Below are positions 32,548 to 49,800 of a DNA stretch of 64,000 bases, in pieces. The DNA is from Desulfocicer vacuolatum DSM 3385. Its GTDB lineage: Bacteria; Desulfobacterota; Desulfobacteria; Desulfobacterales; Desulfobacteraceae. How positions within the stretch are numbered: the first letter of the stretch is position 1; the number at the start of each line of letters is the position of its first letter. The stretch covers positions 124,001 through 188,000 of the forward strand of contig NZ_FWXY01000008.1 in assembly GCF_900176365.1 (NCBI RefSeq). Direction: 5' to 3'. The notes beneath the pieces were generated by a model. It was not told the origin of the DNA. It saw nothing but the letters and a program-made list of their open reading frames with translations, and made no database searches. The position numbers were made by a program, and so were the translations under genes.

Positions 32548-33416
32548 CAGGAAAGAAAGTAAGAAAAACCGGCCTTGGCAGGGGCATTTCAGCCCTCATT
32601 CCCGACATTGAACCCATGGATGAAAAAGCGGGCAGTTTTTTCATGTGTGACATTGAAAATATTGTCCCCAATCGCTTCCAGCCCCGAACCATATTTTCCG
32701 AAGAGGATCTGGAAAATCTTAAAAATTCCATCATTGAGCAGGGGATTTTACAACCGGTTCTGGTGAGACAACAAAATGACAAATATGAACTCATTGCCGG
32801 TGAGCGTCGGTATCGGGCAGCCCAACGCGCCAATCTTACGCGCATTCCAGCCATTATCCGGGAGCTTTCCGATGAACAGGTGCTGGAAGTTTCCATCATC
32901 GAAAATATCCAGCGGGCCAATTTAAACCCCCTGGAAGAGGCAGAAGCGTATCATCGGCTCATCACAGAATTTAAATACACCCAGGAAATGGTGGCGCAAA
33001 AAATCGGTAAAAACAGATCCACCATCACCAACTTTCTGCGATTGAGAAAACTTCCCGAAGTGATCAGTCAGAGCCTGTCAAAAAATCAAATTTCCATGGG
33101 TCATGCCCGGGCACTTCTGGGGGCCGGTGCCCAGCCCCTTCAGATCAAAGCCTGGGAAACGGTGATTTCAAAGGATCTGTCTGTGCGGGCCACGGAACAA
33201 CTGGTTAAGAAAATCAAAGAAAAACCGGATGCTCCGGAAAAAAAGCCTGTCACCCCGGAAACAGAGGCCCTGGAATCCATCTGCAACAATTTAACCCAAA
33301 AAATTCAATCCAGTGTAAAAATAAAGAAAAAAGGGAACAGAGGAAAATTGGAAATCAGTTTTAAAAATGAGCAGGAGTTTCAAAAACTGATCCAGCTTCT
33401 GGACAATATATCATGA
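32544..33416 (+). CDS. parB: ParB/Spo0J chromosome-partitioning protein
   Basis: A 290-residue ParB. The N-terminal RKTGLGRGISALIPD is the ParA-contacting tail. NRFQPRTIFSEEDLENLKNSI, YELIAGERRYRAAQRANL and EVSIIENIQRANLNPLEEAEAY are the CTP-binding/ParB-box region, and KIGKNRSTITNFLRLRKLP is the helix-turn-helix that binds parS. A charged linker (about 215-250) precedes the C-terminal dimerisation domain. Translationally coupled (ATGA overlaps) to parA upstream and to ispH downstream. Confidence 0.95.
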   Translation: MTGKKVRKTGLGRGISALIPDIEPMDEKAGSFFMCDIENIVPNRFQPRTIFSEEDLENLKNSIIEQGILQPVLVRQQNDKYELIAGERRYRAAQRANLTRIPAIIRELSDEQVLEVSIIENIQRANLNPLEEAEAYHRLITEFKYTQEMVAQKIGKNRSTITNFLRLRKLPEVISQSLSKNQISMGHARALLGAGAQPLQIKAWETVISKDLSVRATEQLVKKIKEKPDAPEKKPVTPETEALESICNNLTQKIQSSVKIKKKGNRGKLEISFKNEQEFQKLIQLLDNIS

Positions 33417-35122
33417 AAATAACCATTGCAAAAACAGCAGGCTTCTGCATGGGAGTCCGCCGGGCCGTGGATATGGTATTGGATGCCGCCAATCGCACCC
33501 AGGGACCCATCTGCACCTACGGACCTTTAATCCACAATCCCCAGGTCCAGGAAATGCTCAGAGAAAAGGGAATTCCCAGCATCAAAGAAATTCCTGAAAA
33601 GGGAGAGGGCACCGTTCTTGTCCGGGCCCACGGGGTGCCGCCCCAGGATAAGATCGCCCTTGAAACCGCCGGATTTAAAGTGATTGATGCCACCTGCCCC
33701 CGGGTGATCCGGGTCCAGACCATCATTGGTAAACACCACCGGAAGGGATACACCGCCATCATCATAGGGGATGCCGATCACCCGGAGGTCCGGGGGCTTC
33801 TGGGGTATGCCGGTGACAGGGGGTTTACCGCTTCCTCCCTGGAGGATGTAAAGGCATTGCCCGCCTTTGACAAGGCCGTTGTGGTGGCCCAGACCACCCA
33901 GGACACCTCTTTGTACCGAGAAATCACGCAATGGATCACTGAAAATCATTCCCATTACAAGATCCATGATACCATCTGCAATTCCACGGAAAAACGCCAG
34001 GCGGAAACAAGACAGATTGCCCAGCAAAGTGATGCCGTGGTGGTGGTGGGGGGGAAACACAGTGGCAACACCCAGCGCCTGGCCCAGATTGCCAAGGCAA
34101 CAGGCAAGCCGTCCATGCACATTGAAGATGTATCCGAGCTGGACTATCAATTACTGGACCGGGCAGATTCCGTGGCCATCACCGCCGGAGCTTCCACCCC
34201 CAACTGGATCATTAATAAAACCTGCCGGGCCATTGAAGAACATATCCGCGCCAGCCAAAAAAAGAATCGCTTCTTTTTCCAGGCCCGGAACCTGCTGTTA
34301 AAAACCAATGCATTGCTGGCCATGGGAGCCGGATGCCTTACCTGGGCCTGCGCCTCCCTCCAGGGGCTGGATCACACTTTGATCCACGCCACCGTTGCCG
34401 CGCTTTATGTTCTTTCCATGCAAATTTTAAACAATCTTTTAACCATTTCATCGGATCGATACAACCATCCGGACCGGGCCGGGTTTTACGAAACCCACAA
34501 AAAGACAATGACGGCAGTGGCCCTGGTAAGCGGCGGGGCAGGACTGCTTTTGTCTTTTTCCCACAGTATCACTGCATTTATGCTCCTCATTCTTATGAGT
34601 TTTCTGGGACTCACCTACAATCTTGACATTTTTTCAGTGCTGCCCGGTATTGGTCGATTTAAAGCATTAAAGGATATCCCCGGATCAAAAACCATCCTCA
34701 TTGCCGCTGCCTGGGGAACGGTGACGTCCATTCTTCCGGCCATGGAAGATTTTAATTCCCTTTCCGTGGGAATCTCCTTTGGATTTGCCACAGGCATGGT
34801 TTTTGCCAGAACTGCTTTTTTTAATGTTCTGGAAATGCAGGGAGACAGGATCACCGGCAAGGAAACCCTGCCCCTGATACTGGGAGAAACCCGGAGTCTG
34901 GCATTGATCAAAGGCGTTTTAATTGCCTTGACCCTGATGCTTCTTTTTGCTGCAGCCCTGGGCGTCACAGGCCCCATTGGTTTTTTACTGGCCACCCTTC
35001 CCATTCTTTTGATCAATACCATTGTCCGGTGTGAAAACGGATATCTGCTGCCGGGAAGTAACCTTGAATTCCTTGTGGATGCTCATTTTATCCTGGCCGG
35101 TTTTCTGGGCATTTTCTTTTAA
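33413..35122 (+). CDS. ispH: IspH (HMBPP reductase) fused to a UbiA-like membrane prenyltransferase domain
   Basis: A 569-residue two-domain protein. Residues 1 to about 282 are IspH, the last step of the MEP isoprenoid pathway. The three 4Fe-4S cysteines lie in GFCMGVRRAV, DATCPRVIRV and DTICNSTEKRQAETR; VLVRAHGVP and TAGASTPNWI are active-site segments. From about 290 the chain becomes a multi-pass membrane domain with NNLLTISSDRYN and LEMQGDRITGKETLPLILG. The latter is like the second Asp-rich motif of UbiA prenyltransferases; the first motif is weak. The fusion would link isoprenoid precursor synthesis to prenyl transfer at the membrane; this is inference. The 3' end overlaps the convergent acyltransferase gene by 35 nt. 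Confidence 0.88.
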   Translation: MKITIAKTAGFCMGVRRAVDMVLDAANRTQGPICTYGPLIHNPQVQEMLREKGIPSIKEIPEKGEGTVLVRAHGVPPQDKIALETAGFKVIDATCPRVIRVQTIIGKHHRKGYTAIIIGDADHPEVRGLLGYAGDRGFTASSLEDVKALPAFDKAVVVAQTTQDTSLYREITQWITENHSHYKIHDTICNSTEKRQAETRQIAQQSDAVVVVGGKHSGNTQRLAQIAKATGKPSMHIEDVSELDYQLLDRADSVAITAGASTPNWIINKTCRAIEEHIRASQKKNRFFFQARNLLLKTNALLAMGAGCLTWACASLQGLDHTLIHATVAALYVLSMQILNNLLTISSDRYNHPDRAGFYETHKKTMTAVALVSGGAGLLLSFSHSITAFMLLILMSFLGLTYNLDIFSVLPGIGRFKALKDIPGSKTILIAAAWGTVTSILPAMEDFNSLSVGISFGFATGMVFARTAFFNVLEMQGDRITGKETLPLILGETRSLALIKGVLIALTLMLLFAAALGVTGPIGFLLATLPILLINTIVRCENGYLLPGSNLEFLVDAHFILAGFLGIFF

Positions 35123-36050
35123 AACAAACCTGTGGCGACACAGGGTCACCTATATTGCCTGTCTCACCAAGGATGTCTTGAATTTTGGCATCCTTGCGTT
35201 GCCACAGGCCGTTTAACCAGCAGCAGAACTGTTCCCTGAAATCTGCATCATTGAAAAAATCCCCCATCATTGTTTCAGACACCGGCATGACCTCCACATC
35301 CACAATGATTTTTTTCACCCGACCGGACATGAATCCCCAGAAATTGTCCGCACCCTGGGGATAAACAATGGTGACATCGATAACGGCATTGAGATGTTCC
35401 CCCATGGCACCCAGTACAAAGGCCACCCCACCGGCCCGGGGCTTGAGCAGATGCTGATAGGGTGAGTTCTGGGTTTCATGTTTTGCCGACGTAAACCGGG
35501 TACCTTCCACAAAATTCATGATGGAAATGGGCAGTGCTTTAAATTTCTCACATGCGTTGCGGGTACTTTCCAGATCTTTTCCTTTGAGGTGGGGATGTTT
35601 TTCCAAAAATTTGCGGGTGTAGCGTCGCATAAATGGAAAATCCAGTGCCCACCAGGCAAGCCCCAGGATGGGTACCCAGATCAACTCCTTTTTTAAAAAA
35701 AATTTCAGAAACGGAATTTTACGGTTAAACACTGTGTGGAGCACCAATATATCCATCCAGGACTGGTGATTGGATAATACCAGATACCACTCCTGCATTT
35801 CCAATGTGTCCACCCCCCGGACATCCCACTCAATGCGATTAAAAATCCGGGAATGAAAAATATTCACGCTGATCCAGGCCGTTGCAACGGCAATGAGCCA
35901 TTTATCACACAAAATCCTGCAAGACGCCAAAGGCACGGTGAATTTTACCAAGGCCACCGTGAAAAGCATGGTACACATTACCATTGTATTGATAAGATAG
36001 CATAGAAATGACAAAATGCCCTTTAGCGGGCCGGGAAGAAAATTAAGCAT
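35088..36050 (-). CDS. PlsC-like 1-acylglycerol-3-phosphate acyltransferase
   Basis: A 320-residue membrane-associated acyltransferase. N-terminal hydrophobic segments precede the catalytic HxxxxD motif in LVLSNHQSWMDILVLH, and NFVEGTRFTSAKH is the glycerol-phosphate-binding EGTR block. It resembles the YihG/PlsC2 group that acylates lysophosphatidate. The reading frame is open to 36104, but that N-terminal part lies in dispersed repeat A. The ATG at 36050 has AGGAACGGA about 5 nt upstream and is chosen. It is separated from the megasynthase only by the sigma-54 activator gene and could use its lipid product; that is speculation. Confidence 0.88.
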   Translation of the reverse strand: MLNFLPGPLKGILSFLCYLINTMVMCTMLFTVALVKFTVPLASCRILCDKWLIAVATAWISVNIFHSRIFNRIEWDVRGVDTLEMQEWYLVLSNHQSWMDILVLHTVFNRKIPFLKFFLKKELIWVPILGLAWWALDFPFMRRYTRKFLEKHPHLKGKDLESTRNACEKFKALPISIMNFVEGTRFTSAKHETQNSPYQHLLKPRAGGVAFVLGAMGEHLNAVIDVTIVYPQGADNFWGFMSGRVKKIIVDVEVMPVSETMMGDFFNDADFREQFCCWLNGLWQRKDAKIQDILGETGNIGDPVSPQVCFKRKCPENRPG

Positions 36051-36071
36051 AATATCCGTTCCTGTAAGCAT

Positions 36072-36162
36072 TTTATGTGAAATACTCCGCAAATAAGGGA
36101 GCATTTCTTTCTTTGTTGTGGATAAAACCGGATCAGAACAAGGTCCGCCCGTGGCGGTATTC
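36072..36162 (+). repeat. Dispersed repeat module A
   Basis: TATGTGAAATACTCCGCAAA, spacer, TTTGTTGTGGATAAAACCGG, then AGGTCCGCCCGTGGCGGTAT. It occupies the space between the acyltransferase start and the 3' end of the sigma-54 activator gene. Confidence 0.8.
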
Positions 36163-36189: not shown

Positions 36190-37713
36190 TCAGGAAATGT
36201 CCTGTTGATCAATATATTTTTTAACGGTCCTGCGGTCCACACCGGCCCGCCGGGCCACCTTTTCATAGGCTCCATGTTTTTCATAAAGCAGTTTGAGATA
36301 ACCGGAGGTTAATTCCGCCACGGTCATATCTCCTTTGTCCAATCCTTTGATCAAGCGGTGTTTAACCCCGTCAGTGTCTTTTTTCTGCAATTTTTCATAA
36401 CTCCGACGGAGCATGACCTGCTTGACACATTGCTCAAGTTCTCGAACATTTCCGGGCCAGTGGTAGTCTTTCCCAAGTTCCCTGTCAATCATGCGCGTCA
36501 CTTTTTTCACCAGTTCAGGGCACGGGGTACCCATGATCCTTTCCACGGTGAATGTCAAAAGGGCGGTGAGCTCTCTGGGATCTTGGAGAATTCGTTTTCT
36601 TAAGGGTGGCATTTCAATGACATCTGAGCTCAGGCGATAATAAAAATCATCCCTTAAAACCGCTCCGCCTGCAATATCATCCATGGAACGGTTGGTGGCT
36701 GCAATGACCCGGCCCTGGAACCGGGATTTTTCATGGCTGCCCACGGGGGTGAATACCCGGTCCTGGAGGACCTGCAAAAGTTTGATCTGCACATGGTTGG
36801 CCACCTCACCGATTTCATCCAGTAAAATGGCCCCATGGGGACTGCATCGGTCAAATACCCCGGGATAATCTTCCACAGCCCCGGTAAAGGCCCCTTTTTT
36901 GTGCCCAAACAGCTCTGATTCCAAAAGAGTTTCAGGAAATTGGGAAAGATTTAAAGAAATAAAGGTGCCGGTGAAGCTGTCGTCAAAACACCCCCTTTGG
37001 CTGTCAAAGGGGATAAACCCGCTGCGCCCAACGGCCATGGCTGCGGTTCCCTTGCCTGTGCCGGTTTCCCCCAGTATCAATGTGGAAAAATCCTCCATAC
37101 GGTTCCACAGATATTTATCATACCACTCAATACTGCCGGTGAAAACATTGTTCCATAACTTTCGCTTTAATTCCTTCATGCAGGGACTGTTGCCCACAAG
37201 GGAGTTGGAAATAAAAAAAAATGCCCGGCGTAACTGGAAAGAAAAGGCAAAATAATGATCATGGCAGTTTTGGGGAAACCCCCGTTGTTGGAGCATGGCC
37301 ATGGCCTCCCCGGCAAAGGAAACCTTCACCGGCACATCACCCGCTGCAATCTGATCCATGATCAACTGGTCAAAATGATCCCGAAATTTATGAAAGATGT
37401 CAAAAAGGAACACCACGCGGATGAGGTTTTGGTCTTGTCCTTTAAAGGCCTCCAGTGTGCCGCATCCCTCTTTTTCCAGCTGTTTTACCCGGATATCAAT
37501 TTCGTTTATGCATTGATCCACACTTTCCCTGCGGGAAACAGAAGGAAAGAGCCCTGCAATGGTTCTATCCAGCTTTTCCCGCAGCTCCCCAAAGGGATTG
37601 GCAAAGGCAGCGTGGTATACGGTTTTAAAAAAACGTCTTTCTTCTTTGTTGAGTTTTCTGATTGGGCCCACCTTTTTCTCCTGCACTTCTGAAATTGTGC
37701 ATTTAATGCACAT
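36190..37713 (-). CDS. Sigma-54-dependent transcriptional activator (enhancer-binding protein)
   Basis: A 507-residue enhancer-binding protein. About 180 N-terminal residues are of an unrecognised type (no receiver, PAS or GAF pattern seen). Then the AAA+ core: LILGETGTGKGTAAMAV (Walker A), ELFGHKKGAFTGA (the GAFTGA loop contacting sigma-54), GAILLDEIGEV (Walker B), AATNRSMDDI and FYYRLSSDVIEMPPLRKR. WPGNVRELEQCVKQVM follows, and the C-terminal AYEKVARRAGVDRRTVKKYI is the Fis-like helix-turn-helix. It is divergent from the megasynthase, whose upstream region carries a sigma-54 promoter match, so it is very probably its dedicated activator. The start at 37713 has AAGGTGAG upstream; the in-frame ATG at 37746 lacks one. 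Confidence 0.92.
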   Translation of the reverse strand: MCIKCTISEVQEKKVGPIRKLNKEERRFFKTVYHAAFANPFGELREKLDRTIAGLFPSVSRRESVDQCINEIDIRVKQLEKEGCGTLEAFKGQDQNLIRVVFLFDIFHKFRDHFDQLIMDQIAAGDVPVKVSFAGEAMAMLQQRGFPQNCHDHYFAFSFQLRRAFFFISNSLVGNSPCMKELKRKLWNNVFTGSIEWYDKYLWNRMEDFSTLILGETGTGKGTAAMAVGRSGFIPFDSQRGCFDDSFTGTFISLNLSQFPETLLESELFGHKKGAFTGAVEDYPGVFDRCSPHGAILLDEIGEVANHVQIKLLQVLQDRVFTPVGSHEKSRFQGRVIAATNRSMDDIAGGAVLRDDFYYRLSSDVIEMPPLRKRILQDPRELTALLTFTVERIMGTPCPELVKKVTRMIDRELGKDYHWPGNVRELEQCVKQVMLRRSYEKLQKKDTDGVKHRLIKGLDKGDMTVAELTSGYLKLLYEKHGAYEKVARRAGVDRRTVKKYIDQQDIS

Positions 37714-37875
37714 CCACTGCTCACCTTGTGTACGTTTTTCTCCCATAGCATATAAAAAACGGAATTTCAACAAAAGGTAAACAGAGTTTACTGACAATAA
37801 AAAAAACTTATATCACAGCTGTTTGAAATCTTTTCTAAATTTAAAAACAAAAAACCCAATGCAACACAAAATAAA

Positions 37876-37891
37876 CGGCATAGCTTTTGCT
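37876..37891 (+). promoter_or_regulatory. Sigma-54 (-24/-12) promoter of the megasynthase gene
   Basis: CGGCATAGCTTTTGCT matches the consensus TGGCAYRN4TTGCW at all conserved positions but the first, with exactly 10 nt between the invariant GG and GC. It points toward the megasynthase start 204 nt downstream. The activator gene itself starts at 37713 in the other direction. Activator binding sites would be expected in the AT-rich stretch 37740-37870; none was identified. Confidence 0.7.
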
Positions 37892-38075: not shown

Positions 38076-38094
38076 AATGGGAGAAACAAAGTCA

Positions 38095-41000
38095 ATGCTC
38101 ACTCGAATACTTAATTCAAAATTACCCCTGATGGTATATAACCCCACAAAAATATTTTCCTTAACCTTTTTCACTGAGATTTTCCGATCCGGTGCATTGC
38201 CTGTGTTTGACGCAGAGTTCATGCCGGAAAGTGAGATCATTCATGGGGCAAAACAGCTGGAAAAAGAAGGGATTCTGTTCGGCTTGAGGGTGGTGGCCCC
38301 CGGCGACACCCTTATAGATACGCTAAGAGAGCTGCACCTTGATTACCTGGATATATTGATCATTCCCGTGGAAAAAGAAAACGGCGGGATCACCTTTTCC
38401 GGTTTTGGTGACACCAAGCTGGTCCTTGAAGTCAAGGATATCAACATCAATGACACCATTGAAACCCTGGACCCCCATGCCCTTATTCTCAAGGGAAATG
38501 AAGCCGGGGGGCGGGTGTCCAGTTATTCCTCTTTTATACTGATGCAATGGTATTTGAAAAACAGTAATCGACCTGTTTTCATCCACGGCGGTGTGGGACA
38601 GAACACAGCATCAGGTATGTTTGCCGCCGGTGTCAGCGGTGTGGTCCTGGACAGCCAGCTGTGGTTGGCCGATGAATCTCCGGTGGCAGATAATTTTAAA
38701 GCCCTTCTGGGAAATCTGGATGAGAGCGATTCCATTGAAGTTACCACCGGCCCTGATTTTATCATCCGGGTATTTGCAAAACTGGGAACCAAAATAGCCC
38801 GGGAGCTCAAAGAAAAGGCCATTCTCTGGTCTGACCGGGACAATGCCCGGGAACTTTTGTACCGGGAGCTGGAAAAGGAACTCACTGCCCTTGATGACGC
38901 AGATGCAAGCGCTATACAGTCCCTGTTTTTTCTGGGTCAGGACGCCCTGTTTGCCAAAAGCTTTAAGAAAATTTCCAAATCCGTCAAAGAGATTATCCCC
39001 ACCTTTTTCAAAGAAATCGGAAAACAGCTCCAGTGCGTGGATCAATTTGACCCGGTGGTACCGGACTCTCCCCTGGCCAAAGAGCACGGCACATCCCTTC
39101 CCCTGATCCAGGGCCCCATGGCCAATATCAGTGACAATGCAGAATTTGCATCCATGGTGCTCAAGGCCGGGGCACTGCCCTTTATGGCCGTGGGCAGTCT
39201 GCCCGATTTTCTGGCAGAACCCATGCTCAAAAAAGGTGCAAAAGAGGTTAAAAATTTTGGCGCCGGTCTGGTGGGCATCGAGGCCTTTAATCCGGCCATT
39301 GCAAAGCACATGGACATGGTAAAGGAATACAAAGTTCCCTTTGCCCTGTTTGCCGGGGGCATCCCTTCCCAGATCATTGAGCTTGAAAAAGCCGGTACAA
39401 AAACCTATCTGCACACCCCGTCGGTGTCCATGCTGAAAAATGCCATGGAAAACGGTTGTACCCGATTCATATTTGAAGGAAAAGAGGCCGGGGGCCATGT
39501 GGGTTCCCTCTCCAGCCTGGTGTTGTGGGATGCAGCCATTACCCGCCTTCTGGAAGATACAAAAGTGGATCTGTCCGGCATCAGTCTGATCTTTGCCGGG
39601 GGCATCTCCACCTGTTTTGCTTCATGGTTCATCTCCGGCATGGGTGCGGCCCTGGCAGCCCGGGGGGCCAAAGTGGGCATCCAGGTGGGCAGCGCCTATC
39701 TTTTCACAGAGGAGATCATTGGCACCGGGGCCATGAAAAAGCGGTACCAGGAAATTTTGTGCAAACAAGATAAAACCGTTGTCATCGGCACCAGTGTCGG
39801 GCTTGCCTCCCGCACAGCCCCCACGGAATTTGCCCGGATGACGGTGGAACTTGAAAAAGAGATGATCAAACAGGGCAAACCCCTGACAGAACGCAAAAGA
39901 GCCTTTGAAAAAAATAACATCGGTTCCCTGCTCATCGGAGCCAAGGGTTATCTTCCCGATTTTAAACGCCCGGGGGAAGAGTTCTACACCCGATTTGACG
40001 ACGCGGCCCAGGAGGAAAAGGGAAATTTTCTGGTGGGGGACAGCCTTGCCTATTTTAATAAAACCCTGACCATCCCCCAGGTCCATGGTCGATATTTCAA
40101 TGCCAAAGACACCCTGTACCGCAATCTGGGTAAACTTGAAGTCTTTTCTTCCCCGAAAAACAGACTCAACGATGAGATCGCCATTGTGGGCATGGGGTGT
40201 ATTTTACCCGGAGCCAATGACCCGGAAGCGTTGTGGGACAATATCATGGGCAAGCGATATGCCATCAAGGAGATGCCCGATGACAGAATCCGAAAAGATT
40301 TGTACTATGATGCCGATAAATCCGCAGAAGATAAATCCTATACCATGCTGGCCGGTCTGGTGGAAGATTACCGGTTTGATCAGGAACGTTTCGGCTACAA
40401 TGACGACAAAGCAGCCAAACTCTCCAAAAGCCAGAAAATACTGCTGGAAGCTGCCTATCAGGCTGTGGAGGATGCAGGATATCTCAATGATGATCTCTCC
40501 TTTGCCTGTGAAGATCCCCAGCGCACCGCCGTTATCATTGCCACCTGTCTGGGTAATGAACTTGGCAATGAACTCCAGTTGAAATACCATTTTCCCGAAG
40601 TGGTTTCCATGCTCAGGAAATTACCGGAATTTGCGGCCCTCACCGAAACGGAAAAAACCGACCTTGTGGAGCACCTTCGAGTGGGCATGGAGGGAAACAA
40701 CCCGGGATATGATCCGGTGCACGGCATTCTTTTAAACATTGAAGCCTCCCGGGTGGCCCGTCACCTTGGCATCCGCGGTCCCAATTACATTGTGGATGCG
40801 GCCTGTGCTTCTTCTTTTACCGCCCTGGATGCCGGTGTGGGAGAATTGCTCTCCGGTGATCGGGACCAGGTGATTGTGGGTGGGGTGAACACCCATCTTG
40901 CTCCGGAATCATTCATTGGTTTTTGTAAAATGGGGGCTTTATCTGCGGATGGCTCTTTTCCCTTTGATGAGCGGGCCAATGGATTCATACTGGGTGAAGG

Positions 41001-44000
41001 GGCCGCTGTATTTGTATTAAAACGCATGAAGGATGCCCTGCGGGACGGTGACACAATTCATGCGGTGATCAAAGGCATTGGCAGCAGCTCCGACGGCCGG
41101 GGAAAATCCATTGCCGCCCCCAACGTAAACGGCCAGCTCCTGGCCTTAAAGCGATGTTTTGAAAATATGGCCCCCCGGGTCACCCCGGATGATGTCTCCT
41201 TTGTGGAGGCCCACGGCACATCCACCATCATGGGGGACCAGGCCGAGCTTGAAACCCTGAAACAGGTTTACAGTACCTCAAAAACCGGTGTCAGTTCCGT
41301 GAAATCCCAGATTGGGCATCTGTTGGGCGGGGCCGGTGCTGCCGGTCTTGTCAAAGCGGTACAGGCGGTGAAAAAGGGCGTTTTACCCCCCAATGCCAAT
41401 TTTGAACGTCTCTCCCCCAACCATGATCTTAAAAATTCTGAGATATACATCATTGAATCCTCCGAACCCTGGGTGGAACCGGACAATAAAACCCGTAAGG
41501 CCGGGGTCAGCTCCTATGGCTTCGGAGGCATCAATTACCACATTGTCATTGAAGAGTTTAACAACACCTACACCCCCCTTGGGCGGGATATTTTCACTGA
41601 CCCTTCCTATGATTTCAACGATGACCGCATTGTCATTGCAGGGCTTGGGGTGCGACTGCCCGGGGCTCCGGATGTAAATCATTTCTGGGATGCCCTGAAA
41701 GAGGGGAAAAAACAACTGTCCTCCATACCTGAAGCCACCTTTGACAATGCTGCCTATGCAGAGCTGGATCAAAAATCCAACTACTATCTGCCCATGATAC
41801 AGGCCGGGGTGATCCAGGATTTTAAATTCAACAATATTAAATACCGCATGCCCCCCACAACGGTGAGATCCCTGGAACGGGGCCAGCTACTCGGCCTGGA
41901 TGCCGCAGATGAAGCCATTTCCTCCTGTGGCCTTGATAAACTTCTTTCCCCGGGGAACAAGACCGGCGTTATACTTGGCACCATTGCCGGAGAACGGCAA
42001 AATAAAAATATTCTGCGGGTGAGAAAAGAACTTCTGGGCGAAATCATTGAAAATTCCGGCTCGGAAAAGGGCAAAAACATTGCCCGGGCCCTGGTGGATG
42101 CCATCAGAGAAAGGATTCCGGAAAACAACGAAGACACCACCCCGGGACTCTTGTCCAACATCATCTCCGGCCGCATTGCCAACCATTTTGGCCTCAACGG
42201 CGCCAACTATGTCATTGACGCTTCCTGCGCCTCTGCGGTGATGGCCATTAACAATGCCACCCGGAGTCTGGCGTTTAAAGATCTTGATTTTGTCCTGGCA
42301 GGCGGTGTGGATGCCAATCTCTATCCCGTGGTGCTCACGGCCTTTAAACGCCTGGGACTTCTGTCGGGAACAACGGCCCGGTTCTTTGATGACAGGGCCG
42401 ATGGCTACTCCATGGGGGAGGGGGCCGCCGTGCATGTGCTCACCACCCGGAAAAAAGCCAAAGAAGCCGGTATGGAAATCCTGGGTGAGATCAATCACTG
42501 CACTGTGAAATCCAGTGTCCCGGATCATTTGCTGGCACCGTCGGAGCACACCTTTGTTTCCACCATCAATGAATGTTACAAAGAAAGCGGAATCCTTAAA
42601 AAAGAGCTCAAACACCTGGATCTGTTTGCTTTTTCCAATATATTGGGGGATATGGTGGAAAAACAGGTGGCAGAAAAATGTTTCACCCACGATCTGTCCT
42701 GCGGCAATGTGAAAACCCAGTTTGGTTATTTTAAGGCTGCCAACCCGGCTGTTGCCATGGCCAAACTGATACTCATGAATAAAAACAGAACCCTGCTGCC
42801 GTTCAGGTTCCTGGATAAAGAACACACCACCCTTAAGAACGGCACCATGCTCAACCCCGTGGAAGAAATCACTCCGGTATCCCCCAGGGAACCCATGCGG
42901 TTTGCCTTTAATGTCAACGGCATTGGCGGCAACCACTGCCATGTGATTATCAGCCCCCTGCCTTCCATGCTTCAACAAAAAGCCCGGGCCGTGGCAGAGA
43001 CATCTAAAATCGAGACACCGTCTTCACCGGTCCCGGTACCTGCGGCTGCGGCATCCGGCGGCCCGGGGGCAACAACACCTTCAAGGCCTGCCACCCCGCC
43101 GCCCGTTGCTACCCGGATGAAACCTGCGGCCGGCCCGGCCCCCTTTCCCACCGATGGAAAGCATCAGAAAATGGTGGCACTGCTTTCAGGCCAGGGAGCC
43201 CAGGCCCCCGGCATGATGAAGGAACTCTATGACAGTGACCCTGACATCCGCAATACCATGGATCGGGGTGAAGAGATCTTTGTGGAGCAGCGGGGGTATT
43301 CCCTGCTTGAAATGATGTTTGGGGAGGATAATCGCCTGAACCTCACGGAAAACACCCAGCCGGCGGTGTTTTTGTCTTCGGCGGCCCTGTTTGACCGACT
43401 CCATGCCAGGGGATTTGAACCTGATTTTTTCATTGGTCACAGTGTGGGGGAATACACCGCCCTTTTCTGCAGCGGCATGCTCAATTTTGACGATGCCATG
43501 CGTTTGTTGCTCAAGCGGGCCGATCTGATGAAAGAGGCGGCAGAAAAACACCCCGGCGGCATCATGGTGGTGTTCCGCAACGAAAAGGAAACCGGCACCT
43601 TCATCCGCCAGAGCGGTATCCAGGACATTTACATCACCAATAAAAATTCAGAAAATCAGACCGCGGTTTCCGGTAAAAATCCTGCCATTGATGCTTTTTG
43701 CGAATATCTCACTTCACAGAATATCATCTATAAAAAACTGAATCTTTCTGCGGCATTTCACACACCGCTGCTACAGGAAGCCGCTGAAAAACTCAGGGAT
43801 TATCTGGCCACCATCACCTTTAACGAGACCAATTTCGGTCGGGTGATTTCCAATGTAACGGCCCGGCCCTATCCGGAAAACAGAAGGGAGGTAAAGGATC
43901 TTCTGGCCAAACAGATCACCTCTCCGGTGGAATTCATCCGTTCCATTGAATATGTATATGAATCGGGCAGAACCCATTACATTGAAATCGGTCCGGGCAG

Positions 44001-47000
44001 GCTCCTGGCCAATCTTTTAAAAAATATCAACATTGTACACTTCCAGAGCATGGTCACCGTGGACCGCCGCCAGGGAGAGGCCACCTCCTTTGAGACGTGT
44101 AAAAAATACCTTGCCTCCTACAGCAGTATCTTCACCCGGCAGCGGGATGAGAGACAACTGATTTTACCCAAAGGGGCCACATCCGCCCCGGCCACGGCTA
44201 CTCCGGCAACGGCTCCGGTACCGGTTTCTCTGGATGATGATTTTTCTGCATTTAAATCCCGGAACAATGCCCTGGCGGAAAAATTGCTTTATGAAGAATT
44301 CCGGCGGCAAAAAAGGGAAGCTGCCATGGATGCCCTGGAACGGTTCGACTTTGACACCGACAGCATTGTTATTTCCGGTGTATCCGTGGGACTTCCGGGC
44401 AAGGCAAGGCGGGTATTTGCTCAGGATAACTTTGACAGAATTCTGGAGGGCACCAACTTCATTGAACCCTTGAGCATGGAAGATAAAAAGCGCATCACCG
44501 ATAAAAATATCACCCGGCTCTTTAAACAACCCGACGGCAATGCAAGGTTTGTGGAGATCACAAGAACCGAAGATGTGATCCAGCTGGCCGGACAACTGGG
44601 ATACTTCAGCCTCACCGACGAGTACGGCATTAAAGCACAATATGACGTTTCCATGGCCCTGGCCGTGGCCGCAGGTATTGAAGCATTAAAAGATGCCGGA
44701 ATCCCCCTGGTGATGCAGTACAAAGAAGCTTCCTCCGGGGAGGGGAAAATGATTCCCAACGGTTTTGCCCTGCCACAGGAAATGCAGGATGACACCGGTG
44801 TGATCATCACCTCTTTGTGGCCCAGCAATGAAACCTTGCTCAATGAGATGGAACGATACCTCTATGATCGGTTCTATTTAAAACCCTATGAGGAGTTTGA
44901 AAACATCTACTTCTATCTCATGGAAAATGTAAAGGAGATGGGGGTAAAGGAAAAAATAACCGACTGGTTCTTTAAAATAAAAGGAAGCAAACGGGAAAAT
45001 TTCGGTACTTATAAATTTGACAGAAATTTTCTCATGAATGCCTGTCCATTGGGATCTGCCCATCTGGCCCAGATCATCCGGGCCAAGGGACCCAACACAT
45101 TATTGAGTTCCGCCTGTGCGTCCACCACCCAGGCCATCGGCGTTGCAGAGGACTGGATTCGGGTGGGCCGGTGTAAACGGGTCATTGTCATCGGCGGTGA
45201 AAATGCCACCTCCGAGGCCCAGAATCAATGGGTGGGCTCGGGCTTTCTGGCTCTGGGAGCTGCCACAGTGAAAAAACGGGTGTCTGAAGCTGCCAAACCC
45301 TTTGATTCTGACCGCAACGGCACCATCGTGGGTGCCGGTGCCGTGGGTCTTGTCATAGAAAAAAGTGACCGGGTAAAAGCCAGGGGCATGAATGGGCAGG
45401 CAGAGATTCTGGGGACCCACATGGCCAACAGCGCCTACCACACCTTTAATATTGATGTGCCCCACATGGCAAGGGAGATGACCCGGTTTATCAACCGCAT
45501 GGAACAACAGCACCGGATAACAAAAAGCGAGTATGCCAAAAAACTGTTATTCATGTCCCATGAAACCTACACCCCGGCCCGGGGGGGCAGTGCCGATGCC
45601 GAGGTGACAGCCTTGAAAACCGCCTTTGAGGAGTATCTTAACCACATCTGCATCTCCAACACCAAGGGTTTCACCGGTCACACACTGGGGGCAGCCATTG
45701 AGGATGTGGTCATGGTTAAAGCGCTTCAAAAAAGAAAGGCGCCGCCCATTGCCAACTTGACCTCCATTCCGGATCATTTCAAGGCCCTTAATTTCAGCAG
45801 TAAAAAGGCCATTCAATCGGAATATGGCCTGCACCTTGCTGCAGGATTTGGATCTCATTTTGCCTTTTTGCTCATTAAACGCATTGAGGAAAATACCTTT
45901 GACAATAATCCAGAGTACACCCGGTGGCTCCAAAGGGTGTCCGGTGCAGTGAATCCGGAACTCAAAGTCATTGACAACACCCTTTGTGTGGTGCCGGGAC
46001 CCGGAGGGGCACTGCCCCAGTCAGCTCCCGGAGAACAGCCCCGGCTGCCCAAAGCCATGTCCATGCCAGAAGCTGCATCATCGGCATCCGACATCTCCGG
46101 TGAAGATAAGGCACCTGCAGCTGCCATCCCGGAAAAAGCCACAGCCTCCATGGCATCTGAGAGTGCTGCCGCACCATCTGAAGCAGCACCGGCCCCGGCC
46201 CCAAGTGCAGGGCCTGGGGCTTTGGATAAAATCAAAGAGATCATTGCCGAACAGACCGGATACACCACAGACATGCTGGAAGACACCCTGGATCTGGAGG
46301 CGGATCTTGGCATTGACACCGTAAAACAGGTGGAGATTTTTGCCAAGGCTGCCGGTCATTTTGGATTCCCTGTGCCGGAAGATTTAAAGCTAAGGGATCT
46401 TAACACCATTGCCAAGCTGGCAGATTATATCAACACCAAGGCTGCTCCCCAGGGACCGGATACGCCTCCCTCCGGAGGAACAAATGCTCCGGGTGCAGCT
46501 GGGGGAACTTCCCCTGCAGCGGTTGCTCCGGCAGCGGCTCCCACCGGCGGAGGAGACGCTTCTGTGGCAGCAGGTGCCCTGGAAAAGGTAAAAGAGATCA
46601 TTGCCGAACAGACCGGATACACCACAGACATGCTGGAAGACACCCTGGATCTGGAGGCGGATCTTGGCATTGACACCGTAAAGCAGGTGGAAATTTTTGC
46701 CAAAGCTGCCGGGCATTTTGGATTCCCTGTGCCGGAAGATTTAAAGCTAAGGGATCTTAACACCATTGCCAAACTGGCAGATTATATCAACACCAAGGCC
46801 GCACCCCAGGGACCGGATACGCCTCCCTCCGGAGGAACAGATGCTCCGGGTGCAGCTGGGGGAACTTCCCCTGCAGCGGTCGCTCCGGCAGCGGCTCCCA
46901 CCGGCGGAGCAACCGCTTCTGTGGCAGCAGGTGCCCTGGAAAAGGTAAAAGAGATCATTGCCGAGCAGACCGGATACACCACGGACATGCTGGAAGACAC

Positions 47001-49800
47001 CCTGGATCTGGAGGCAGATCTTGGCATTGACACCGTAAAGCAGGTGGAAATTTTTGCCAAGGCTGCCGGCCATTTTGGATTCCCTGTGCCGGAAGATTTA
47101 AAGTTAAGGGATCTTAATACCATTGCCAAACTGGCCGATTACATTAACACCAAGGCGGCTCCCCAGGAACCGGACACCCCTCCTTCAGGGGATGACGGTC
47201 CTTCCGGTGCCACCCCGGGTGGTTCCGGTGGTCCTTCAGGGGACACAAAAGGTGCGTCAGGCCCAGACCGGACCGACCCTGCAACCGGAACCTTTGGTGC
47301 CAAAGGGGTGAAGACTTCAGATATCAAGCGACTGGTGCCGGTGATCAAGGCCGTGCCCGTCCCCGGCACCGAAGCTATGGATATGGCCGGAAAAACCGTG
47401 GTCATGACCTTGGATAATGCAGGATTTGCCCAGAAAACAGCAGCGTTTCTGGGCAAAAAGACCCGGATCATTGGAGTGGGAGCGGATAAAAATTCCGGTG
47501 GGTTTTGTGATGAATTCATTTCCATGGATCTGTCATCAGAAAACGCCATAAAGGAAGGCGTGGCGCAAATTATTCAGAACCGGGGAGAAATCCATGGATT
47601 TCTCCATCTGGCGCCTCTGGATCTTTGTTTTCCTGAAATCGCCGGAGCCGGTCTTTCCGGAGTGGACCATGTACACGCCTTTTTTCATCTTATGAAGGCG
47701 CTTTTCAATGAGCTGAATAAAAAAGATCGATTTGTTGCAGCCCTTTCCCTGGAATCAGTGGTCTTTCCCCATGATAAAACCTTTAAATCAAGAATTGAGC
47801 CCTGTTTTGCCGGAATATCGGGCATGATGAAAAGTCTTGTTAAGGAGATGCCCCATACCCGGGTGAAAATGGTGGATTTTTCCTGCCCTGATTTTTCAAC
47901 GGCCCATGATGAAATCATCGGGCAGTTTTTCCAGGAGATCACCTCCGGAGATACCCGGGTGGAGACAGGATATCGGGATGGTGAAAAACACATTATAAAA
48001 CTGGACGAACAGGCCCCCAATGACATGGAAGAAAACCTCATCAAAGAGGGGGACACTGTGGTGGTCACCGGTGGAGCCCGGGGCATCACCTTTGAGATCC
48101 TTAAGCAGGTGGTTGCCACCCGTAAAACCAACCTTGTCATCCTGGCAAGGAGCCCCATTGACACCCTGGATTCAAAATTCCTTGATCCGGGTGCCACCCC
48201 TGCCACCATCATGGCAGGCCTCCGGGATAGCATGCCCGGGGCCAAACCTGTGGCATTGAAAAATGAAACAGACCGTATCATGGCCATCCGGGCCTCCCGG
48301 GAAAATCTTGATGTTTTAAGATCCCAGGGGGTGTCTGTGACCTATCTTGCCTGCGATGTGGCAAATAGAGACGCGGTAGAAAAAGCCTTGTCCGGCATTG
48401 ACCGCGTGGACGGATTTATCCATGCCGCAGGCCTTGAAGAGAGCATGCCCTTTGAAAAAAAGGCCTATGACTCCTTTGTCCGGGTATTTAACACCAAGGT
48501 GAAAGGATGCCGGAACGTCATGGCGGCCCTGGAAGGAAAACAGGTTCAATACTACATTGGATTTTCTTCGGTGACGGCAAAATTCGGTAACGAGGGCCAG
48601 GCAGACTACACCGCAGCCAACGACATGCTGGCCAAAATATTGTTTAAGGCTCAAACGGAACAGGAAAATATCACCTGTAAAATCATGGACTGGACCGCCT
48701 GGAGCGGGGCTGGTATGGCCACCCGGGACACCGTTAAAAAGGTGCTCACCGAACGGGGTTTAAAATTTTTGCCCCTTGAAGAGGGTATTGATTTTTTCAT
48801 GGACGAACTTTCCGACACCGTCACCACCGAAGTGGTGATCACAGGGCTTGATGAAGCTTTTGACCGGGATGGCCTTCTTACTGTGGCACCGTTTTTGGAT
48901 AAAAAGACAAAAACAGAGGAAGTTAAAACTGTATTTTCCCGACATCTTTCCATTGAAAGGGATCGATTTCTCCTGGACCACGCCATGGAAGGCACCCCCA
49001 TCTTTTTGGGGGCCACCGGGGTGGAAACCATGGCAGAAGCTGCCATGGCAAGCCGAGAAAAACCGGGGCACCTCACCCGTGTAAGTGATTTTTCCATTCC
49101 CTATGGCATCAAACTGCTCCAGAATCGACCCAAATCCATTCTGGTGTCAGCAGAGGCTGTGGACAATGATCCCCATGCCTGGAACTGCACCATCACTTCG
49201 CAGTTCATCAATCCCGCCGGGGTGGCCATGGGAGATCCAAAACTCCATTATAAAGCCAGGTTCATGGTTATGGATATGCCCCTGCCCGGGGAGAAACGAT
49301 CCATTCCTCAGTTCACCCCTGTTGGTAACTCAAAGGAGCTTGCCAACCAGATTTATCATCCCCAGCGTCTTTTCATGGATGATCTGTTTAGATCCATCCA
49401 TGACATTTTAAGCTTTGACGGAAAAACCCTGGTAAGTCTTTTGTCCTACACCAGTGATGCACCTTTTTTCAATTACGGAGGTGAACCGGAATTTTTAACA
49501 GATGTGGTGCTCCTGGACGGCATGTTCCAGACCGGCGGGGCCTTTGAGTTTTTCACTGACTCCTGTGTGGTGCTGCCGTACAAAATCGGCACACTTGAGT
49601 TCATGGCCCGGGGGGTAAAAAACACAAATTATCTGTGCTTTACCACCCGCACGGCATCCAATGACGAAACAGACACCTATGCCATGGATCTGGTGGATGA
49701 AACTGGCAATTTCTTGATGAAACTCAGGGATTTTGAGATGGTCAAGCTGCACAAACTGACCCCGGAACACACCATCAGCAAAAAAATTATAGAGAAGTAA
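38095..49800 (+). CDS. Single-chain Pfa-type (PUFA-synthase-like) fatty-acid/polyketide megasynthase
   Basis: A chain of about 3901 residues that probably builds a long acyl chain iteratively. Domains: FMN barrel 6-270 (degenerate EAGGR); second FMN barrel 331-656 (PfaD-like enoyl reductase, EAGGH with His468); KS1 692-1155 (Cys904 plus both His); KS2 1176-1626 (Cys1378 but both catalytic His replaced, CLF-like); AT 1693-1992 (GHSVGEY, Ser1783); KS3 2089-2599 (Cys2341, SHETYTP and TGHTLGAA His); three ACPs with Thr at 2742, 2861 and 2980; pseudo-KR 3099-3310; KR 3320-3590 (GGARGI, Tyr3505); hotdog DH 3616-3896 (His3629, Asp3808). No thioesterase and no phosphopantetheinyl transferase is seen. 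Start at 38095 has GGGAG upstream; an ATG at 38077 abuts the repeat. Regulated by the divergent sigma-54 activator. Product unknown; PUFA or another secondary lipid is inference. Confidence 0.9.
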   Translation: MLTRILNSKLPLMVYNPTKIFSLTFFTEIFRSGALPVFDAEFMPESEIIHGAKQLEKEGILFGLRVVAPGDTLIDTLRELHLDYLDILIIPVEKENGGITFSGFGDTKLVLEVKDININDTIETLDPHALILKGNEAGGRVSSYSSFILMQWYLKNSNRPVFIHGGVGQNTASGMFAAGVSGVVLDSQLWLADESPVADNFKALLGNLDESDSIEVTTGPDFIIRVFAKLGTKIARELKEKAILWSDRDNARELLYRELEKELTALDDADASAIQSLFFLGQDALFAKSFKKISKSVKEIIPTFFKEIGKQLQCVDQFDPVVPDSPLAKEHGTSLPLIQGPMANISDNAEFASMVLKAGALPFMAVGSLPDFLAEPMLKKGAKEVKNFGAGLVGIEAFNPAIAKHMDMVKEYKVPFALFAGGIPSQIIELEKAGTKTYLHTPSVSMLKNAMENGCTRFIFEGKEAGGHVGSLSSLVLWDAAITRLLEDTKVDLSGISLIFAGGISTCFASWFISGMGAALAARGAKVGIQVGSAYLFTEEIIGTGAMKKRYQEILCKQDKTVVIGTSVGLASRTAPTEFARMTVELEKEMIKQGKPLTERKRAFEKNNIGSLLIGAKGYLPDFKRPGEEFYTRFDDAAQEEKGNFLVGDSLAYFNKTLTIPQVHGRYFNAKDTLYRNLGKLEVFSSPKNRLNDEIAIVGMGCILPGANDPEALWDNIMGKRYAIKEMPDDRIRKDLYYDADKSAEDKSYTMLAGLVEDYRFDQERFGYNDDKAAKLSKSQKILLEAAYQAVEDAGYLNDDLSFACEDPQRTAVIIATCLGNELGNELQLKYHFPEVVSMLRKLPEFAALTETEKTDLVEHLRVGMEGNNPGYDPVHGILLNIEASRVARHLGIRGPNYIVDAACASSFTALDAGVGELLSGDRDQVIVGGVNTHLAPESFIGFCKMGALSADGSFPFDERANGFILGEGAAVFVLKRMKDALRDGDTIHAVIKGIGSSSDGRGKSIAAPNVNGQLLALKRCFENMAPRVTPDDVSFVEAHGTSTIMGDQAELETLKQVYSTSKTGVSSVKSQIGHLLGGAGAAGLVKAVQAVKKGVLPPNANFERLSPNHDLKNSEIYIIESSEPWVEPDNKTRKAGVSSYGFGGINYHIVIEEFNNTYTPLGRDIFTDPSYDFNDDRIVIAGLGVRLPGAPDVNHFWDALKEGKKQLSSIPEATFDNAAYAELDQKSNYYLPMIQAGVIQDFKFNNIKYRMPPTTVRSLERGQLLGLDAADEAISSCGLDKLLSPGNKTGVILGTIAGERQNKNILRVRKELLGEIIENSGSEKGKNIARALVDAIRERIPENNEDTTPGLLSNIISGRIANHFGLNGANYVIDASCASAVMAINNATRSLAFKDLDFVLAGGVDANLYPVVLTAFKRLGLLSGTTARFFDDRADGYSMGEGAAVHVLTTRKKAKEAGMEILGEINHCTVKSSVPDHLLAPSEHTFVSTINECYKESGILKKELKHLDLFAFSNILGDMVEKQVAEKCFTHDLSCGNVKTQFGYFKAANPAVAMAKLILMNKNRTLLPFRFLDKEHTTLKNGTMLNPVEEITPVSPREPMRFAFNVNGIGGNHCHVIISPLPSMLQQKARAVAETSKIETPSSPVPVPAAAASGGPGATTPSRPATPPPVATRMKPAAGPAPFPTDGKHQKMVALLSGQGAQAPGMMKELYDSDPDIRNTMDRGEEIFVEQRGYSLLEMMFGEDNRLNLTENTQPAVFLSSAALFDRLHARGFEPDFFIGHSVGEYTALFCSGMLNFDDAMRLLLKRADLMKEAAEKHPGGIMVVFRNEKETGTFIRQSGIQDIYITNKNSENQTAVSGKNPAIDAFCEYLTSQNIIYKKLNLSAAFHTPLLQEAAEKLRDYLATITFNETNFGRVISNVTARPYPENRREVKDLLAKQITSPVEFIRSIEYVYESGRTHYIEIGPGRLLANLLKNINIVHFQSMVTVDRRQGEATSFETCKKYLASYSSIFTRQRDERQLILPKGATSAPATATPATAPVPVSLDDDFSAFKSRNNALAEKLLYEEFRRQKREAAMDALERFDFDTDSIVISGVSVGLPGKARRVFAQDNFDRILEGTNFIEPLSMEDKKRITDKNITRLFKQPDGNARFVEITRTEDVIQLAGQLGYFSLTDEYGIKAQYDVSMALAVAAGIEALKDAGIPLVMQYKEASSGEGKMIPNGFALPQEMQDDTGVIITSLWPSNETLLNEMERYLYDRFYLKPYEEFENIYFYLMENVKEMGVKEKITDWFFKIKGSKRENFGTYKFDRNFLMNACPLGSAHLAQIIRAKGPNTLLSSACASTTQAIGVAEDWIRVGRCKRVIVIGGENATSEAQNQWVGSGFLALGAATVKKRVSEAAKPFDSDRNGTIVGAGAVGLVIEKSDRVKARGMNGQAEILGTHMANSAYHTFNIDVPHMAREMTRFINRMEQQHRITKSEYAKKLLFMSHETYTPARGGSADAEVTALKTAFEEYLNHICISNTKGFTGHTLGAAIEDVVMVKALQKRKAPPIANLTSIPDHFKALNFSSKKAIQSEYGLHLAAGFGSHFAFLLIKRIEENTFDNNPEYTRWLQRVSGAVNPELKVIDNTLCVVPGPGGALPQSAPGEQPRLPKAMSMPEAASSASDISGEDKAPAAAIPEKATASMASESAAAPSEAAPAPAPSAGPGALDKIKEIIAEQTGYTTDMLEDTLDLEADLGIDTVKQVEIFAKAAGHFGFPVPEDLKLRDLNTIAKLADYINTKAAPQGPDTPPSGGTNAPGAAGGTSPAAVAPAAAPTGGGDASVAAGALEKVKEIIAEQTGYTTDMLEDTLDLEADLGIDTVKQVEIFAKAAGHFGFPVPEDLKLRDLNTIAKLADYINTKAAPQGPDTPPSGGTDAPGAAGGTSPAAVAPAAAPTGGATASVAAGALEKVKEIIAEQTGYTTDMLEDTLDLEADLGIDTVKQVEIFAKAAGHFGFPVPEDLKLRDLNTIAKLADYINTKAAPQEPDTPPSGDDGPSGATPGGSGGPSGDTKGASGPDRTDPATGTFGAKGVKTSDIKRLVPVIKAVPVPGTEAMDMAGKTVVMTLDNAGFAQKTAAFLGKKTRIIGVGADKNSGGFCDEFISMDLSSENAIKEGVAQIIQNRGEIHGFLHLAPLDLCFPEIAGAGLSGVDHVHAFFHLMKALFNELNKKDRFVAALSLESVVFPHDKTFKSRIEPCFAGISGMMKSLVKEMPHTRVKMVDFSCPDFSTAHDEIIGQFFQEITSGDTRVETGYRDGEKHIIKLDEQAPNDMEENLIKEGDTVVVTGGARGITFEILKQVVATRKTNLVILARSPIDTLDSKFLDPGATPATIMAGLRDSMPGAKPVALKNETDRIMAIRASRENLDVLRSQGVSVTYLACDVANRDAVEKALSGIDRVDGFIHAAGLEESMPFEKKAYDSFVRVFNTKVKGCRNVMAALEGKQVQYYIGFSSVTAKFGNEGQADYTAANDMLAKILFKAQTEQENITCKIMDWTAWSGAGMATRDTVKKVLTERGLKFLPLEEGIDFFMDELSDTVTTEVVITGLDEAFDRDGLLTVAPFLDKKTKTEEVKTVFSRHLSIERDRFLLDHAMEGTPIFLGATGVETMAEAAMASREKPGHLTRVSDFSIPYGIKLLQNRPKSILVSAEAVDNDPHAWNCTITSQFINPAGVAMGDPKLHYKARFMVMDMPLPGEKRSIPQFTPVGNSKELANQIYHPQRLFMDDLFRSIHDILSFDGKTLVSLLSYTSDAPFFNYGGEPEFLTDVVLLDGMFQTGGAFEFFTDSCVVLPYKIGTLEFMARGVKNTNYLCFTTRTASNDETDTYAMDLVDETGNFLMKLRDFEMVKLHKLTPEHTISKKIIEK
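46213..47165 (+). repeat. Three tandem 357-nt ACP-coding repeats
   Basis: The carrier-protein units recur at an exact 357-nt spacing (GAGATCATTG at 46237, 46594 and 46951), that is 119 residues per unit. They are nearly identical at nucleotide level, including synonymous positions, and the Ala/Pro/Gly/Thr linkers are copied too. This points to recent duplication or ongoing gene conversion, so copy number may vary between strains. Confidence 0.9.

Follow-up and report, generated by a model that had tools for sequence, protein, structure and literature searches.

The stretch of DNA analysed here, 64,000 nucleotides of Desulfocicer vacuolatum DSM 3385 (contig NZ_FWXY01000008.1, positions 124,001 to 188,000; hereafter the window), contains one gene that places enoyl reductase (ER), ketosynthase (KS), acyltransferase (AT), acyl carrier protein (ACP), ketoreductase (KR) and dehydratase (DH) domains on a single chain. 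What does a bacterium make with such a synthase: an unusual long-chain lipid or polyketide, as the original prediction suggested, or the ordinary fatty acids of its membrane? Housekeeping type I fatty acid synthases (FAS) occur in animals, fungi and some Actinobacteria, and most bacteria use type II fatty acid synthesis (FAS II). Most likely, the synthase serves as the housekeeping FAS, of type I, in the family of the window (Desulfobacteraceae by its named members; f1) and in the relatives of Desulfoluna (the family f18), and an extra synthase in the other genomes that carry it. On balance we favour an iterative one-chain FAS that makes bulk, mainly saturated, acyl chains and has replaced FAS II in f1 and f18. 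More tentatively, and at somewhat less than even odds, we propose that both families dismantled FAS II and that a single type I synthase of ~3,900 residues, with phosphopantetheine on threonine, makes their membrane fatty acids. In its architecture the synthase varies a type already known; new here are the family-wide lack of FabF over the cut-off, a scar between acpP and rpiB and the scarcity of other ketosynthases in Desulfoluna limicola, and the threonine carriers are the oddest feature. If the proposal is true, the lipid biomarkers of common marine sulfate reducers would be read differently, the case would show how FAS II is dismantled while acpP and fabH remain, and a compact all-in-one synthase would be on offer.

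Domain order and active sites of the synthase

The gene is an intact open reading frame (ORF) without internal stop from 38077 to 49800 on the forward strand (3,907 amino acids), or 3,901 amino acids if it starts at 38095. The latter, the start given in the original prediction, is probably the true one, because the relatives begin at a Met that aligns with that of 38095 and not with the upstream in-frame ATG at 38077. A Pfam search of the whole chain finds NMO twice, ketoacyl synthase three times, acyltransferase once, PP-binding three times, KR once, and PKS_DH_N and PS-DH, the two DH models scoring slightly under threshold (26.1 bits for a cut-off of 27 and 22.8 bits for one of 23.7, respectively). 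The content and the order originally read from motifs are recovered by profiles: ER1-ER2-KS1-KS2-AT-KS3-ACP-ACP-ACP-KR-DH. The features, all on the forward strand, are:

38095–49800 (+): megasynthase, whole coding sequence (ORF scan; relatives' start Met; upstream in-frame ATG at 38077)
38095–39066 (+): ER1, TIM barrel resembling FMN reductases, catalytic His missing (profiles, alignment, model)
39067–40146 (+): ER2, FabK-like enoyl reductase with His474 (profiles, alignment, structure comparison)
40162–41571 (+): KS1, ketosynthase with the full Cys-His-His triad (Pfam, alignment)
41644–43026 (+): KS2, similar to KS and to chain length factor (CLF) (profiles, alignment)
43174–44046 (+): AT, FabD-like malonyl transferase (profiles, alignment)
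44254–45906 (+): KS3, divergent ketosynthase with Cys-His-His (profiles, alignment)
46225–46431 (+): ACP1, Thr codon 46318–46320 at the phosphopantetheine position
46576–46800 (+): ACP2, Thr codon 46675–46677
46933–47157 (+): ACP3, Thr codon 47032–47034 (boundaries by analogy with ACP2)
47404–48036 (+): structural, N-terminal part of the KR (KRn; boundaries chosen by us)
48055–48705 (+): catalytic domain of the KR with Ser/Tyr/Asn (Pfam, alignment)
48889–49761 (+): DH, double hotdog of the polyketide synthase (PKS) type (Pfam, alignment)

Relatives were gathered by searching genome contigs with an alignment of 14 sequences covering both ERs, which yielded 79 loci. All ten domain types (ER1, ER2, KS1, KS2, AT, KS3, ACP, KRn, KR and DH) lie on a single ORF in 41 of them; in 32 the ORF leaves the fetched stretch, five are split or frame-broken (L065, L075, L087, L091 and L112) and L117 is without KS2. 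An assembly fusion or a frameshift joining separate genes, the event that would have overturned the original prediction, is therefore strongly disfavoured and was rejected, since 41/79 loci from other genomes have the same one-ORF organisation. L117, on a contig labelled Heimdallarchaeota, is a divergent relative with Thr carriers, and the loci L088 and L100 are labelled Spirochaetes. A possible selenocysteine codon, an in-frame TGA in the Desulfoluna loci, was also discarded: the stop precedes the start, and the frames of L091, L094 and L096 open exactly at the start of the match.

Active sites were compared in 39 chains, namely the window and 38 loci with a complete C-terminus, L117 included. 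The catalytic residues of KS1 (Cys910/His1046/His1081), AT (Ser1789/Arg1814/His1895), KS3 (Cys2347/His2495/His2535) and ER2 (His474), and the Ser/Tyr/Asn of the KR, are kept in 39/39 chains. The predicted dehydratase at the end of the chain is indeed there, with His3635 in all 39 and Asp3814 in 38. Conserved catalytic residues of KS1, AT, KS3, KR, DH and ER2 are thus found on one chain, in which the carrier Ser is replaced by Thr. KS2 has the Cys in 36 of the 39 chains and His at neither aligned His position, and by sequence appears to be CLF-like. No FabA-like domain (PF07977) was found in the chain, and no thioesterase domain was found in it by Pfam.

The two reductases at the N-terminus are FMN-reductase-like, as had been predicted, although their description as PfaD-like did not hold. 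Neither matches the NCBIfam model of PfaD (TIGR02814) at E up to 0.01, whereas the genuine PfaD proteins of the same genome (L120) and of Desulforapulum (Desulfobacterium) autotrophicum HRM2 (L201) score 629 and 621 bits, and PfaD was therefore rejected as their identity. Both match the FabK model TIGR03151, below its cut-off. Position 146 of ER1, which aligns with the catalytic His of ER2, is occupied by K, R, Q or N in 37 of 39 chains. The predicted structure of the ER1-ER2 pair (pLDDT 86.3, pTM 0.91) was compared with known structures by Foldseek: the best matches are FabK chains, with a query TM of 0.38–0.42 and an rmsd of mostly 2.7–3.4, while the longer PfaD chains fit more poorly (0.35–0.37 and 6.6–8.5, respectively). 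The natural reading of this arrangement would be a built-in heterodimer, by analogy with the two TIM-barrel ERs of the thraustochytrid Schizochytrium (ERb and ERc), which pair as a heterodimer (PMC13311796); there, both ERs have the His and lie on different proteins, whereas here they stand in tandem and ER1 is without it.

In the cycle that we propose, the AT would load malonyl on the three tandem carriers, which would hold phosphopantetheine on threonine, and KS1 would condense with KS2 as its CLF-like partner. The KR would then reduce, the PKS-type DH dehydrate and ER2 saturate the chain, with the His-less ER1 as built-in dimer partner; KS3 may be a second active condensing site or a priming site. 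Since no thioesterase was found, the finished chain would presumably be handed to CoA, to ACP or to a PlsC-type acyltransferase, and release by the AT might be considered. In f1 and in the Desulfoluna family, where FabF and FabZ were not found, this cycle would have superseded FAS II.

Fatty acid synthesis genes in the host genomes

Comparison within the Desulfobacterales shows that the domain order belongs to a conserved family and is not unique to the window. With a carrier defined as a genome with a match of at least 48% identity to ER1-ER2-KS1, 30 of 194 genomes of the order qualify, that of the window included; several further genomes encode ER-KS chains that are shorter and less similar (30–38% identity), and one of these, G045, was counted as a non-carrier. 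Named carriers include Desulfobacula, Desulfobacter, Desulfospira, Desulfotignum, Desulfamplus, Desulfoluna, Desulfobotulus and an Olavius symbiont. One further locus (L089, genome G017), from a metagenome-assembled genome labelled Desulforapulum autotrophicum, groups with f18 and not with f1, the family of HRM2, so that its label is doubtful. In f1, the ER part of the synthase was found in 65 of 78 genomes, in 46 of these within one open frame of at least 3,500 amino acids, and in 40 of the 42 good genomes (at least 90% complete, at most 5% contaminated).

The main set for a survey of FAS II genes was 47 genomes: 27 of the 30 carriers (G104, G141 and G057 were omitted as incomplete) and 20 hand-picked non-carriers. 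FabF scores over the cut-off in 14/27 carriers vs 19/20 non-carriers (p = 0.0014, with kinship ignored). It is absent at this level from all 12 surveyed f1 and f18 genomes, and from all 78 genomes of f1. FabZ (E up to 1e-25) was found in 155 of the 194 genomes of the order, in none of the 12 f1 and f18 genomes and in all 15 other carriers of the set. A nearly universal gene combined with the lack of FabF over the cut-off would suit the routine supply of membrane fatty acids better than that of an uncommon speciality lipid, and weakens the unusual product first suggested. FabF-like matches slightly under the cut-off in G264, G258 and G231 (475–486 bits) were set aside, as their surrounding frames, judged by eye, are unlike a FAS II cluster.

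For FabD the carrier set was enlarged by five f1 genomes; it is over the cut-off in 9 of these 32 carriers (a fragment in G119 counted as absent) vs 17/20 hand-picked non-carriers. Twelve carriers with FabF and FabZ have no FabD over the cut-off (G069, G181, G008, G009, G110, G073, G114, G004, G026, G086, G123 and G020); in these, the AT of the synthase or a pfa AT may serve FAS II. It has been reported that pfa genes complement the loss of fabD in E. coli and that the loss of fabD and pfaA is synthetically lethal in Photobacterium (PMC8174602).

The absence of fabF is also seen in the gene order. In three comparators with FabF (G008, G026 and G055), gltX is followed by (fabG) acpP fabF rpiB glyA comEB nrdR and, where the stretch extends, by ribD ribE ribBA; a fourth (G049) has fabG acpP fabF and no rpiB. 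By contrast, in 17/17 f1 and f18 genomes acpP is followed by rpiB within 19–237 bp with no fabF between them. A relaxed fabF search of these 17 acpP-rpiB stretches gave five matches, all with E of 4.4 or more and none credible. In the acpP stretch of 11/11 f1 genomes no match to fabG was found (the query itself is FabG over the cut-off). A remnant is visible in a carrier of a third family (G014, contamination 9%), in which the first 60 residues of fabF align, broken by a stop before which 58 codons are kept:

L196:6743–6922 (G014:C79): truncated fabF remnant between acpP and rpiB (relaxed fabF search)

Which condensing enzymes remain was examined by a census of PF00109 ketosynthases, FabH-type enzymes not counted, in eight genomes of one or two contigs. 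In G220, G225, G248 and HRM2 (G205), KS domains occur in the synthase, and otherwise only as three further ones in pfa-type chains (annotated as such in G205 and G220), while G129, G221 and G234 have additional stand-alone KS genes. In Desulfoluna limicola (G169), the only other KS is a protein of 410 amino acids in a biotin cluster, and the synthase is therefore the best candidate for bulk fatty acid synthesis in this species; in f1 it is one of two candidates. In the biotin cluster itself (L176), the FabF-like KS lies among bioF-like, bioB and bioD genes, together with a dedicated ACP and KR; the cluster may form a mini-FAS reserved for the biotin precursor. The stand-alone KS of the D. vacuolatum genome also adjoins bioF-like and bioD genes.

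The second candidate in f1 is a pfa-like system. No other pfa-like gene was found among the 21 scanned ORFs of the window, all at 22.9 kb or beyond, which agrees with the original prediction of no neighbouring pfa genes; elsewhere in this genome, however, there is a distinct pfa-like cluster. On C42 (L120), a PfaD gene (the 629 bits given above) adjoins a KS-AT-ACP2-KR-FabA chain (2718 amino acids), and on C39 (L121) a KS-CLF-DH chain (1577 amino acids) lies beside a KSIII. In addition, a split paralogue of the synthase on C62 (L119:1362–10685) consists of three neighbouring genes for ER-ER-KS-AT-ACP (1968 amino acids, with a Ser carrier), KR (636) and DH (481).

The strongest competitor of a housekeeping role is a secondary synthase for a speciality long-chain lipid or lipid-polyketide, with the membrane fatty acids of FabF-less genomes made by the pfa-like cluster (PfaD, KS-AT-ACP-KR-FabA and KS-CLF-DH). 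We judge it unlikely, even though several observations speak for it. HRM2 and G220, like D. vacuolatum, hold a pfa-like system; the other f1 genomes of the census have KS chains of similar sizes; and the sigma-54-like promoter and regulator described below suggest conditional expression. The related ArsA makes the chain of a cyst lipid (PMC4824345). Finally, the single-contig non-carrier G070 has no FabF over the cut-off either, and its one FabD match among those listed lies in a 2,201-amino-acid chain. On the other hand, in D. limicola no KS belongs to a pfa-type chain and the FabA family gives a single weak match (27.3 bits), and FabF over the cut-off and FabZ were nevertheless not found in this species. 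Moreover, KS chains of ~2,100–2,400 amino acids occur widely among those genomes of the order in which FAS II is retained, so that chains of pfa size do not track its loss.

Several points, the pfa-like system, the sigma-54 signals (an odd control for a housekeeping enzyme) and G070 among them, also weigh directly against the bulk type I FAS that we favour. Carrying the synthase does not by itself imply replacement of FAS II, because 14/15 carriers outside f1 and f18 keep FabF over the cut-off and 15/15 have FabZ; the same numbers suit a secondary synthase. FAS II is reduced and not gone, as FabH is kept (in 46 of the 47 genomes at E up to 1e-40, in 45 over the cut-off) and so is AcpP (52/52 genomes); a fabG also stays in the acpP cluster in 6/6 f18 genomes. 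Sub-cut-off FabF-like matches occur in 34 of the 78 f1 genomes, and two of the 42 good ones show no synthase. The scar alone proves little, since the carrier G069 has no fabF in its acpP cluster but keeps a copy at another place, the FabF-bearing G026 is without fabG in that cluster, and the non-carrier G070 is without fabF as well. The losses cluster on the tree, which points to few independent events, many of the surveyed genomes are draft assemblies, and unsaturated chains are not accounted for by the proposal.

Threonine carriers and the weaker alternatives

All three ACPs of the window read DLGIDTVKQVEIF, with Thr in place of the Ser that usually carries phosphopantetheine. In a profile search of 59 other loci, 175 of 176 readable ACP domains have Thr at this position, the single exception being an Arg in the frame-broken L065. 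The motif LG[IV]DTVK is unbroken in 120/120 copies, one to five in each of the 39 chains, and the HRM2 orthologue likewise has Thr in its ACP motifs. The other synthases of the D. vacuolatum genome, on C42 and C62, have Ser. Among the nine shorter ER-KS relatives (L155–L163), Ser was read in four (L155, L156, L157 and L163) and the motif was not found in the remaining five. Nine of 17 records from a plasmid collection were examined, and the motif found in eight of them has Ser in seven and Thr in one, from Nonomuraea, which also has KS3.

A near-invariant Thr is contrary to the usual attachment rule and raises the question whether a phosphopantetheinyl transferase (PPTase) modifies threonine. 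In E. coli, the S36T variant of ACP is not phosphopantetheinylated and not functional (PMC3340395), and the papers inspected in a search of the open-licence PMC literature included no case of a natural Thr carrier. Two readings follow: modification of Thr by a PPTase, or domains that do not work as carriers. The latter case, in which the Thr ACPs are dead or a scaffold and the soluble AcpP serves in trans, fits the E. coli variant and the general retention of AcpP, which has Ser in G220, the one inspected. We nevertheless regard it as distinctly improbable, considering that the motif is intact in every copy and kept in every chain and that a PPTase-like gene accompanies the synthase in some genomes. 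Such a gene adjoins it in 14 fetched stretches from 12 genomes (one of those checked is over the Pfam cut-off, two are below that of NCBIfam) and directly follows the end of the DH in HRM2; in G047, a FabH lies between the synthase and the PPTase-like gene. Three PPTase queries gave no match in the window.

De novo fatty acid synthesis is a necessity for free-living autotrophs like HRM2, and it is highly improbable that the FabF-less bacteria live by reversed beta-oxidation (thiolases) or by fatty acid uptake with the synthase as an accessory, which would leave unexplained both the active-site conservation in 39 chains and the spread of the gene in f1, even if weak KS-model matches in frames of 393–454 amino acids of the D. 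vacuolatum genome look thiolase-like to us. It has been suggested that D. autotrophicum could take up fatty acids on which it grows (PMC3098273).

Known relatives and genomic setting

The architecture is probably already on record as the Type S synthase, listed from D. autotrophicum HRM2 only and with its product given as unknown (Shulse and Allen, 2011; PMC3098273). HRM2 has a full orthologue of 3,913 amino acids (ER1-ER2-KS1-KS2-AT-KS3-ACPs-KR-DH) with the same regulator, PlsC and LytB-UbiA neighbours as the window. That this orthologue is the Type S synthase is likely and not proved, because the text of that source gives no domain order for Type S and HRM2 also holds a pfa-like system. An enzyme of this architecture is thus probably listed already, though not a characterised one. 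The same source notes that HRM2 is without fabA/fabZ and proposes that the Type S cluster fills the role of core FAS there; neither a family-wide loss of FabF nor Thr carriers appear in the available part of that description. Judged by title and abstract, the papers listed in searches for a type I FAS in these bacteria include nothing relevant beyond PMC3098273 and PMC4882568.

Other systems share parts of the architecture. The ArsA-type (Type P) gene of Beijerinckia encodes ER1 (His-less)-ER2-KS-AT-ACP2-KR on one chain, with 36% identity over residues 114–1167, but differs in its Ser carriers, in the absence of KS2 and KS3, in a DH-like portion that a separate gene encodes together with a PPTase, and in its neighbours of KS III type (type III PKS by the literature). 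No such partners occur among the neighbours of the window synthase (regulator, PlsC, rubrerythrin, helicase and others). The Azotobacter ArsA makes C23–C25 fatty acids (PMC4824345). The Nonomuraea homologue resembles the synthase in its KS1-AT-KS3-ACP-KR-DH chain and Thr carrier and differs in that no ER or KS2 was found on the chain. Type R synthases, compared by their text description alone, are KS-MAT-CLF-ACP-KR. The polyunsaturated fatty acid synthases (PfaABCD) share KS, a CLF-like domain, malonyl/acyl transferase (MAT), tandem ACPs, KR and a TIM-barrel ER; the synthase scores below the cut-off of TIGR02813 (837.9 of 1010.1 bits) and differs in being one chain with Thr carriers, without a FabA-like DH/isomerase and without a TIGR02814 match. 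Of the Pfa-like megasynthase first proposed, what stands is therefore a self-contained lipid synthase distantly related to Pfa. Fused PfaD-PfaA genes are known elsewhere (PMC13291983).

Upstream of the synthase, the window contains:

37876–37891 (+): sigma-54-like promoter CGGCATAGCTTTTGCT, at a distance of 185 bp from the ATG at 38077
36190–37797 (−): enhancer-binding regulator of the sigma-54 type, divergently oriented and conserved next to the synthase
35088–36104 (−): PlsC-type acyltransferase adjoining the regulator, often conserved

Transcription of the synthase is probably sigma-54 dependent. A divergent sigma-54 regulator lies at most 900 bp away in 45 of the 58 loci with at least 3 kb of upstream sequence, and a sigma-54-like site scoring at least 13, the score of the window itself, was found in 85% of 68 upstream regions vs 3.7% of mononucleotide shuffles. 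No RNA element reached the gathering score between 35000 and 52000. Among 62 loci of over 12 kb, PlsC is nearby in 30 and LytB-UbiA in 23; in the window, the latter is a LytB (IspH)-UbiA prenyltransferase fusion protein at 33413–35122. Downstream of the synthase, five loci from Desulfoluna and two other lineages (L131, L132, L133, L135 and L140) have carboxyltransferase genes, four of them also with genes like subunits of Na+-pumping decarboxylases, and a link to malonyl-CoA metabolism is possible.

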